DNA of 54,132 nt from Candidatus Zixiibacteriota bacterium (lineage in GTDB: Bacteria; Zixibacteria; MSB-5A5; GN15; FEB-12), in NCBI GenBank assembly GCA_040753875.1, contig JBFMDV010000035.1, forward strand, positions 1 through 54,132. Direction: 5' to 3'. Each line of letters begins with the position of its first letter. The first letter of the stretch is position 1. The position numbers and the translations under genes were made by a program. Positions 36,397-40,165 of the stretch are shown here, piece by piece. The notes under the pieces are model-generated. The model saw only the letters and a program-made list of their open reading frames with translations, did not search any database and was not told the DNA's origin.

Positions 36397-36603
36397 TCAA
36401 CTAAACCCGCTTCCGCAGTCGCCTGAGCCGCACGACGGCGCCGCCGTACCCGATCCGGAGCTTATCGAGGAAGCAAACATTGAGAGCAGCTTGCGTGCGT
36501 CGCTCGACTGACAGACAGGGCAGGAGACTGTCTCGTCCTCATGGCGAACCAGTTCCTCGAACTTCCGGCCGCATTCATTACACGCATATTCGTACATCGG
36601 CAT
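36397..36603 (-). CDS. FmdB-family zinc ribbon protein
   Basis: 68 residues: MPMYEYACNECGRKFEELVRHEDETVSCPVCQSSDARKLLS, with two CxxC pairs for zinc, and a Gly/Ser/Cys-rich tail (PSCGSGDCGSGF). This is the small FmdB regulatory-type zinc ribbon often seen with redox or one-carbon genes. It starts 11 bases after the TAG of the candidate selenoprotein gene, with AGGAGA overlapping that stop codon, so they are one unit. Confidence 0.92.
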   Translation of the reverse strand: MPMYEYACNECGRKFEELVRHEDETVSCPVCQSSDARKLLSMFASSISSGSGTAAPSCGSGDCGSGFS

Positions 36604-36614
36604 AGTTCATTCTC

Positions 36615-36803
36615 CTAATCGGACATCGACATGATCGCCCCGATCATGACCCCGGCGCTTGTAGTCAACCAGGGGCTGCACATGATCTGTCACGTCGACC
36701 CCATCGCCATATAGACCATCGAAAACCCAAACCCGGCGACACCGCCAGTGATGGCGAAGAGGGCGATCCGTCTCAGTTTGTTGTGCGTACTCTTCTTCTG
36801 CAT
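36615..36803 (-). CDS. Candidate selenoprotein, small DUF6132-like membrane protein (TGA at 36690-36692)
   Basis: Reading through one in-frame TGA gives 62 residues: a basic start (MQKKSTHNKLRR), a hydrophobic segment (IALFAITGGVAGFGFSMVYM), then MGST-U38-QIMCSPWLTTSAGVMIGAIMSMSD and TAG. DUF6132-like small proteins have a conserved cysteine in a G(T)CPITSSPW-like element at the very position of U38 (my recollection, not searched). ATG 36803 has GGACGGGA upstream; 36830 is an upstream in-frame alternative. Hairpins exist after the TGA: arms 36687-36681/36648-36642 with GCCCC/GGGGT inside and apical loop about 25 bases after TGA, and an 8-bp hairpin at 36648-36630. Downstream FmdB initiation overlaps the TAG. 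If TGA is a stop, the gene makes only 37 residues. Confidence 0.65.
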
Positions 36804-36872
36804 TCCCGTCCGTTCTATATCCTTAGCCATAACAGACTCATCCGAAGGATCGTTCCCACCGACAGGCGCGCT

Positions 36873-37262
36873 CTAAACCGCTGCCTTCATTACTTTGATA
36901 AGGGTCGCCTCAACCTCGGCCGCCAGAGACTCAAGCCCCGCCTTGGGCATCATCTGGCCGATCATGGTCGGGCGCCCCAGACTCACCACGGTTTTGGTCC
37001 CCTCCGTGTACACAGTGATTCGGCATGGCATGAACAGCGCGACATCCATCTCCTTTTTGAGCGCCTCGTGGGCGAACTTGGAGTTGCAGACCTCCACGAT
37101 TTTGAGCGGGTCCCGCTGGAACCCTTTCTCCGCCAGTGTCGCCTGGACATCGTGGATATGCAGAATCCGAAAATTATGTTCCGGCACCAACTTCTCGATG
37201 GCCGCCAACACGGAGTCCATCGTTTTATCAGTCTTCAGCGTGTAGGCAAATGTCTCATTCAT
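36873..37262 (-). CDS. DUF302-domain protein
   Basis: 129 residues: FAYTLKTDKTMDSVLAAIEKLVPEHNFRILHIHDVQATLAEKGF, then IVEVCNSKFAHEALKKEMDVALFMPCRITVYTEGTKTVVSLGRP. This is the DUF302 fold, small alpha/beta proteins common next to thiol and sulfur redox genes in anaerobes. The two cysteines (VEVCN, MPCRI) could be redox active. It lies between the OsmC gene (54 bases upstream) and the candidate selenoprotein gene (69 bases downstream) on one strand. Confidence 0.9.
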   Translation of the reverse strand: MNETFAYTLKTDKTMDSVLAAIEKLVPEHNFRILHIHDVQATLAEKGFQRDPLKIVEVCNSKFAHEALKKEMDVALFMPCRITVYTEGTKTVVSLGRPTMIGQMMPKAGLESLAAEVEATLIKVMKAAV

Positions 37263-37316: not shown

Positions 37317-37736
37317 CTATTCCAGAATCACTTCAACTGCCGTAGTGACCTTCGTTTCGCACTTGACGGTCTGGCTTACCGAGCAGTACTTCTCCATCGA
37401 CAGTTCCACCGCCTGAGTGACTTTCTGCGAATCGAGGTTCTTCCCTCGCGCCCGGTACTTGATCTCAACCGTATGATACGGTTTGGGATATGTATCCGGC
37501 TGGTGACCGACCACTTCGATCTCAAGAGCGGTGAGTTCTTGGCGTTGTTTCTGCAGGATCCCCACCACATCGACTCCCGTGCATCCGGCTATGGCATACA
37601 ACAGCAGCTCGGTCGGCTTGTAGCCGGACTCCTGCCCGCCGGATTCCTTCGCTGTGTCCGTCACGATAGTGTGACCGAACACAGATTTCCCCTCAAACCG
37701 TTTGCCACCGGTCCAGCTCATCCTGGCTGTTACCAT
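37317..37736 (-). CDS. OsmC-family peroxidase-like protein
   Basis: 139 residues of the OsmC/YhfA type: FGHTIVTDTAKESGGQESGYKPTELLLYAIAGCTGVDVVGILQK, then VEIKYRARGKNLDSQKVTQAVELSMEKYCSVSQTVK. The two active-site cysteines of thiol-dependent hydroperoxide reductases are present (AGCTG and KYCSVS), with the usual arginine region less clear. First gene of the minus-strand redox unit OsmC-DUF302-selenoprotein candidate-FmdB. Confidence 0.93.
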   Translation of the reverse strand: MVTARMSWTGGKRFEGKSVFGHTIVTDTAKESGGQESGYKPTELLLYAIAGCTGVDVVGILQKQRQELTALEIEVVGHQPDTYPKPYHTVEIKYRARGKNLDSQKVTQAVELSMEKYCSVSQTVKCETKVTTAVEVILE

Positions 37737-38296: not shown

Positions 38297-40165
38297 CTAT
38301 TGGCATGGCGCCAACTGGATCGTCCCGCCTTGATTGAAAATAAGATAACTCACCAGGAGAGTGAGATCCTGGATATCGACTGTGCCGTTCGCTGAACCAT
38401 CAACGTTCGCCTCATCCAGGCAGACCCCTCCACTGCCCCCAGGACCGAACAAGTACGAAATCAGTGCCTGAAGGTCTCCAATGTCTACGACGTCGTTGGG
38501 GGAGCCGTCGATATTTCCTGTCTTTCCCACGCACCCTAAGCAGAGCGGCGCCTGCCAGGCGCCATACCGGGTCCAGGTCTTGCCTCCATAGGTGACATTC
38601 ATTTCCTGCCCGGCGCTGGGACGAGAGAAGTCGCCCCCCGCGGCATTCGTGAAACCGGGGTTCACGGTATTGAAACTACTGTGAGCGTCGTGCGCCGCGC
38701 GACCAGCCCACGCACCTGAAGTTCGGTTCCTCCACGCAGTCCAGCCCTGCTGCAGGGCATCGAAGACGAACGTGTTCTCGCAGTTCCAGTACAGGTTGCT
38801 GTCGATCACGAAATTAGTGTCGTTGTCGCTGAAGTAGTGAAACTGCGGGTCACCGGAGGCGTCGTTGTCATAGAAAATGTTGTATTTGCAGAAGTTTGGC
38901 AGGCTGTCAAAATCCCCCTGGTAGGCTCCGGTAACAACACCACCCGCCGACGGAAAACCGTAAATAGTATTGTTGCACACGAAATGATGTCCGGGATATC
39001 GATCCGTGTATCGTTCGAACCAGATTGCCTTCCGACAATTGATGAAGACATTACCGTAACAACTGTCGTACTGATTGTTGCCGAGGTTCTGGTAGCCGGC
39101 ATGCAGCGCGTTCGCAACCGTGCTGAATCTCAGAACATTCCCCTTGGAATGTCCGCCGGCCCCTCGATTCTTCCAGTCGACTGCCCCGCCGAGTGCATCG
39201 GCATAGCAGCTTTCGACCGTGAAGTGACTGTAGCCATACGTAGTAATAAGGTTGCAGCGTTCGGCACCATTGGGGAATGGCTCACTTATCAGGCCGCCAT
39301 AACAGGATCGAATACGGCAGTACTTGCCATCGAACGCATACGTGCAATCGAGACTCCCCCCACAATCCGAAATTGAGGAACCATCCTGTGTCCCCACGAT
39401 GCCGGCATTTGAGTACAGATTGGTGCCAATGCGCGTGATTCGACAATGATCGATAAAGACCGAATCCACTTTGGCATAGGCCAGATGCACCCCCGCATAG
39501 AAGCTCCAGCGTATGTCAAAACCGAAGAAGGTGACATAATTGGAATTACTTCGTCCGGTGAACTCGATCGTCGACCGTCGCGACGCATAGATAGTGTGGT
39601 TGGTTGGGTTCACTCCGTCGGTGCACCACACATAGATCCGATTGGTCAGCAGATCGTGGCAATAGCTTCCGGGCCCCACAATGCTCATGTCGGCAGGCGT
39701 CGTGCACGCCCGCAACATCGTCGTGTCCTGGCCGCCGATACTCGACTGTTGACCCGAAAACGCTTCCCACTCCGGCAAGTTTGCCGTCGTGTAGTAAATT
39801 CCCCCTGAGAAATTGGTCCAGGTGGTTCCACGAGGGAACACGGTGGCTGCCGACAGCGTGCATGCTTTGGCGGCCATCAGGCCTGGATCGCTGATCGCGT
39901 TACTCCGACCGTCCCCGCACACGTAGCAGGTACGATCCCGGCTGTTCAGATTAGCCGGTGGTGTAATGACCCCGTTGTAGGTGCCAGGTCCGAAAAAAAC
40001 TGTATCCCCACCCTGCAAACGGGAATTGACCCAACTGATCCCGTTGCCGGCATTGGCCCACGTTGACCCTGCGCGTGTGCCTGCGCCATTAGGGGTTACA
40101 TAATACGTGGCGCCGTAAGTACTGGCGCCAAGCAGACCCGCGACCATGAGAAGAATGCGCTTCAT
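38297..40165 (-). CDS. Secreted parallel beta-helix protein with C-terminal dockerin
   Basis: 622 residues. Signal peptide (1-18, KRILLMVAGLLGASTYGA), then TYYVTPNGAG, a beta-helix region of repeated short strands (about 30-540: FFGPGTYNGVI, TIEFTGRSNSNYVTFFGFDIR, VFIDHCRITRIGTN, YGNVFINCRKAIWF, with many Cys and Asn turns). A C-terminal dockerin-like pair follows: GNIDGSPNDVVDIGDLQALISYLF and ANVDGSANGTVDIQDLTLLVSYLI, with DxDGxxxxxVDIxDL calcium loops. Helices of this type often bind or cleave polysaccharides; no catalytic residues can be assigned. A dockerin implies a cohesin partner, not seen in the window. Confidence 0.9.
   Translation of the reverse strand: MKRILLMVAGLLGASTYGATYYVTPNGAGTRAGSTWANAGNGISWVNSRLQGGDTVFFGPGTYNGVITPPANLNSRDRTCYVCGDGRSNAISDPGLMAAKACTLSAATVFPRGTTWTNFSGGIYYTTANLPEWEAFSGQQSSIGGQDTTMLRACTTPADMSIVGPGSYCHDLLTNRIYVWCTDGVNPTNHTIYASRRSTIEFTGRSNSNYVTFFGFDIRWSFYAGVHLAYAKVDSVFIDHCRITRIGTNLYSNAGIVGTQDGSSISDCGGSLDCTYAFDGKYCRIRSCYGGLISEPFPNGAERCNLITTYGYSHFTVESCYADALGGAVDWKNRGAGGHSKGNVLRFSTVANALHAGYQNLGNNQYDSCYGNVFINCRKAIWFERYTDRYPGHHFVCNNTIYGFPSAGGVVTGAYQGDFDSLPNFCKYNIFYDNDASGDPQFHYFSDNDTNFVIDSNLYWNCENTFVFDALQQGWTAWRNRTSGAWAGRAAHDAHSSFNTVNPGFTNAAGGDFSRPSAGQEMNVTYGGKTWTRYGAWQAPLCLGCVGKTGNIDGSPNDVVDIGDLQALISYLFGPGGSGGVCLDEANVDGSANGTVDIQDLTLLVSYLIFNQGGTIQLAPCQ

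Follow-up and report, generated by a model that had tools for sequence, protein, structure and literature searches.

Among described proteins, the closest to the gene product considered here are those of the DUF6132 family (PF19628), which are of about 60 residues and consist of two hydrophobic glycine-rich helices around a conserved GTCPIT(S/A)NP turn. A catalogue dated May 2026, covering 119 families of prokaryotic selenoproteins, contains no DUF6132-like family, and lists an FmdB-family selenoprotein (motif UxxU), an OsmC-like selenoprotein (UxxT) and a selenoprotein form of the YeeE/YedE thiosulfate transporter (GUxSG) (PMC13188914). The locus described here lies in a stretch of 54,132 nucleotides from Candidatus Zixiibacteriota bacterium (assembly GCA_040753875.1, contig JBFMDV010000035.1; hereafter the window), where a minus-strand gene for a small membrane protein resembling DUF6132 in size, helices and turn is interrupted by an in-frame UGA codon. 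Insertion of selenocysteine (Sec) at this UGA in a functional membrane protein is very highly probable, and the gene is best read as representing a new family of selenoproteins, in which a membrane hairpin of DUF6132-like type carries Sec. The first-pass annotation had named it as a candidate selenoprotein, and this proposal is now supported more strongly than the sequence alone had allowed, by the Sec machinery, the TGA/Cys column and an RNA structure under selection.

The reading frame 36615-36842 (minus strand) contains a single in-frame stop, the TGA at 36690-36692, is otherwise open and ends at the TAG 36615-36617, and both sides read as one protein, as first noted, with the TGA column common to 55 genomes. 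The read-through product is DESVMAKDIERTGMQKKSTHNKLRRIALFAITGGVAGFGFSMVYMAMGST-U-QIMCSPWLTTSAGVMIGAIMSMSD*, a short membrane protein whose turn reads GST-U-QIMCSPW. The gene comprises the following elements:

36615..36830, minus strand: predicted selenoprotein coding sequence, from a putative ATG start (MAKD...) at 36830 to the TAG
36801-36803, minus strand: possible alternative, shorter ATG start (MQKKSTHNK...), which fits the length of the relatives better
36690..36692, minus strand: in-frame TGA, predicted to be read as Sec; 55 genomes have TGA at this column, and 11 have TGT/TGC
36678..36680, minus strand: codon of the putative partner cysteine, four residues after Sec (+4, U-x3-C)
36642..36687, minus strand: hairpin resembling a selenocysteine insertion sequence (SECIS), nucleotides 6-51 with the U of UGA numbered 1, with the apical loop about 23-24 nucleotides past UGA

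Conservation was followed by a search of 60 relatives and then of 132 genomes of the window's phylum. A homologue is present in 66 of the 132 phylum genomes, and in 55 of them, belonging to 33 genera, the homologous column is TGA (42 genomes in the window's family, 12 in family f4 of the same order and one in family f15), with up to 57% identity to the window protein. The remaining 11 homologues, from families f6, f9, f10, f15 and f16, are more distant and lack a TGA, the column codon being TGT or TGC; in one of them (L076) the translation at the column is SGACPLTSNP. Thus, UGA and Cys occupy one column in relatives, the pattern by which bacterial selenoproteins are recognized and which the first-pass annotation had anticipated, and in a 57-row alignment this column is invariant (Cys or Sec in 57/57). 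Family f15 holds one Sec genome and one Cys genome, the Sec one (G111) being listed as 9% contaminated, and a tree built on few columns requires Sec and Cys to have interchanged at least twice. Among the Sec-form homologues 23-33 codons remain open past the TGA, and a coding-type codon-position pattern is seen in family members both 5' and 3' of the UGA. No match to the predicted selenoprotein was obtained in a search of plasmid records or in a genome-contig collection scanned with the single protein and with the alignment, and a PDB sequence search gave no meaningful match. In f2 and f3, two further families of the order, the gene was not found at an expectation value (E) of 0.001 or below, yet six such genomes have a transfer RNA for Sec (tRNA-Sec), which suggests that these families lost the gene.

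The window's genome was found to contain the Sec machinery, for which a check had been proposed at the outset: tRNA-Sec (anticodon UCA, 64 bits), SelA (502 bits) and SelB (310 bits), encoded adjacent to each other, and SelD (378 bits) with one in-frame TGA of its own. Of the 55 genomes carrying the Sec form, tRNA-Sec was found in 47; the other eight all have a SelB match, seven of them above the cut-off, and the eighth (G002) has SelD with TGA. Across the phylum, dependence of the Sec form on the machinery is uninformative, because 106 of the 132 genomes, Cys-form genomes among them, have tRNA-Sec. As a separate observation, nine relatives (L110-L118) contain a second SelD in a frame of 559-753 amino acids without in-frame TGA, in addition to the ordinary SelD with TGA present in 9/9 of these genomes, which suggests a Sec-less SelD fused to another domain.

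Besides the codon itself, an RNA stem-loop just 3' of the UGA was found to be under selection. The hairpin of the window, lying in a 57-nucleotide fold with a minimum free energy of -18.9, corresponds to the stem-loops noticed in the first-pass annotation. Its counterparts in the family are far more stable than synonymous-codon shuffles, in which codons were swapped among sequences sharing the column's amino acid, so that the proteins and the per-column codons were preserved: over nucleotides 16-45 the mean folding energy is -11.5 versus the expected -7.9 (z -11.7, reached in 0/200 shuffles). A sliding-window scan located the signal at +9 to +50 only (z -11.7 and -9.4), with values of -3.9 to +0.2 in the rest of the gene, and the first 63 nucleotides of the downstream FmdB gene, used as a control, gave z of +1.0 to -2.8. 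Third codon positions vary less after the UGA (0.54) than before it (0.67), in line with an RNA element overlapping the coding sequence, and in family members the apical loop mostly starts 20-30 nucleotides past the UGA. With respect to the published limits for a bacterial SECIS (apical G, spacing 16-37, minimum free energy <= -7.5), the hairpin of the window lies inside them (spacing 23, loop GACUACA, -12.3 kcal/mol); however, these limits are passed by 42 of 48 members, the window included, versus 40 of 48 shuffles, and hence the bacterial SECIS check proposed at first does not discriminate.

The relationship to DUF6132 was addressed at the level of single sequences and of profiles. The window protein has no significant match in Pfam or NCBIfam, PF19628 included, and 5 of 28 relatives match DUF6132 (best E 3.4e-4). 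Alignment with hhalign against four DUF6132-type rows gave a probability of 98% (E 9.7e-15) with Cys under Sec, and a profile comparison against the Cys homologues of f15 and f16 gave an E of 8.7e-13. Thus, of the earlier assignment to DUF6132-like proteins with a Cys at the TGA position, the placing of Cys on the Sec column stands, while the window protein misses the Pfam model, and judged by these comparisons the link is a distant relationship and not membership by Pfam's cut-off. DUF6132-type loci of the phylum have FmdB nearby on the downstream side, as the Sec loci do, and differ in carrying Cys at the column and mostly a further Cys at -5 (absent from L075), in contrast to the Sec family with Sec and usually a Cys at +4. 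The FmdB (UxxU) and OsmC-like (UxxT) selenoproteins belong to the protein families of the window gene's neighbours; however, FmdB and OsmC of the window use Cys, and it is the small membrane protein encoded between these two that carries the predicted Sec. YeeE/YedE is likewise a membrane selenoprotein with Sec beside a glycine, although it is a large multi-pass transporter, unlike the two-helix window protein, and a sequence relation between both did not turn up, no dedicated comparison having been made.

In the proposed mechanism, SelB and tRNA-Sec, together with the SECIS-like hairpin just 3', would carry translation past the UGA 36690-36692 to the TAG at 36615, yielding a selenoprotein of about 62-71 residues. 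This product would form a membrane hairpin with a positive N-terminus inside, a glycine-rich helix, the GSTU-xxM-C-(N/S)P turn and a second helix, and would be the Sec-containing variant of a DUF6132-like family that is represented by Cys variants in other orders of the phylum. The Sec would sit in the turn, where helix 1 reaches its outer end, and probably faces outward; family members carry a mean charge of +3.2 at the N-terminus and +0.15 in the turn, and because of this N-terminal positive charge the turn is placed outside by the positive-inside rule. AlphaFold predicts helices at residues 6-34 and 44-61, with a short one at 39-42, around the GSTU turn. The Sec could usually pair with the Cys at +4, which is present in 44 of the 55 Sec members, in a putative selenenylsulfide. 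Among the 11 others, seven (L031, L034, L038, L079, L083, L094 and L095) have a Cys 5-7 residues ahead of the Sec, as if the partner had moved, and four have no nearby second Cys.

Other explanations of the UGA need to be weighed against Sec insertion. If the UGA were a true stop, a one-helix peptide would be the functional product, with the 3' part untranslated or started internally just after the UGA, in line with which an ATG, GTG or TTG occurs within six codons past the UGA in 42 of 55 members. The other 13 have no such codon nearby, which is why a downstream peptide with a start of its own was discarded; moreover, Cys homologues fuse both halves in one frame, and protein conservation and coding pattern continue across the UGA, making a true stop very improbable. 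An open frame past the UGA is also what would be seen if the codon were read as a different amino acid, by general recoding to Trp or near-cognate read-through. This is no more probable than a true stop, given that TGA serves as a normal stop elsewhere, ending five of the nine genes checked in the window and 13 of the 55 members of the family, that the column in homologues is Cys and never Trp or Arg, and that the genome has Sec machinery and the gene a SECIS-like hairpin. Least probable of all is a decayed gene or an assembly error, as a small hypothetical protein containing a stop might appear to be: the core has no further stop, the neighbours are conserved, and the TGA, for which a read error had been raised as an objection, is not a sequencing error, because it recurs in 55 separately assembled genomes of 33 genera, a recurrence that already refutes this explanation.

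Several observations nevertheless weigh against the proposed explanation. Loops of the family hairpins are more varied and seldom of the G[GU]U type seen in the SelD hairpins of the same genomes, whose loops in 13 clear SelD cases are of the G[GU] type and lie at about 20 nucleotides, and hence the concern over an apical loop without the canonical GU, voiced in the first-pass annotation, stands. An RNAalifold consensus for the family hairpin was not found, as its register and loop sequence vary, and column covariation is weak given this highly variable register and loop. Confidence in the AlphaFold model is moderate (predicted local distance difference test 69), and, since 11 of 55 members lack the Cys at +4 and four of these lack any nearby second Cys, pairing of Sec with Cys cannot account for the mechanism in full. 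Finally, support is wholly computational: computation establishes the UGA/Cys conservation, the machinery, the selection on RNA structure and the synteny.

The predicted selenoprotein gene is flanked by genes of a conserved cluster:

37317..37736, minus strand: OsmC-family (YhfA-type) thiol protein, encoded at the start of the cluster (PF02566, E 1.2e-17; PRK10738, E 8e-25, below its cut-off)
36873..37262, minus strand: DUF302 protein, directly upstream (PF03625, E 1.4e-18)
36397..36603, minus strand: FmdB-type zinc-ribbon protein, directly downstream (PF09723, E 1.7e-14)

The ribosome-binding site of FmdB (TAGGAGA, with the FmdB start at 36603) overlaps the final TAG 36615-36617, confirming an early observation. 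The order OsmC-DUF302-selenoprotein gene-FmdB is kept, with FmdB found at 55/55, OsmC at 52/55 and DUF302 at 46/55 Sec loci, some of which stop at a contig edge. There is perhaps an even chance that the protein, anchored in the membrane, works together with the OsmC and DUF302 proteins in thiol/selenol redox chemistry or in the handling of sulfur or peroxide. Since the predicted selenoprotein is kept in 33 genera, selenium would matter to whatever the OsmC-DUF302-FmdB cluster does.

New selenoprotein families are rarely found, and selenoproteins are missed by ordinary gene callers because these end genes at UGA. That a Sec form had been little described agrees with its absence from the 119-family catalogue and with NCBIfam release 20, which has no model recognizing the family; full-text literature, apart from subscription papers and preprints, gave no description of it either. 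It is quite likely that these genes constitute an uncatalogued family of membrane-hairpin selenoproteins of about 60 residues with an extracytoplasmic Sec, present in two families of one order, forming a conserved redox/sulfur module with OsmC, DUF302 and FmdB, and using hairpins unlike the usual G[GU]-loop SECIS. The turn of a tiny membrane hairpin would be an unusual setting for Sec, and the link to selenium makes the function of DUF6132-like proteins testable. Elsewhere in the window, the minus-strand frame 38297-40165 encodes a secreted-looking protein with two C-terminal dockerin-like repeats (VDIGDLQALISYLF, VDIQDLTLLVSYLI).
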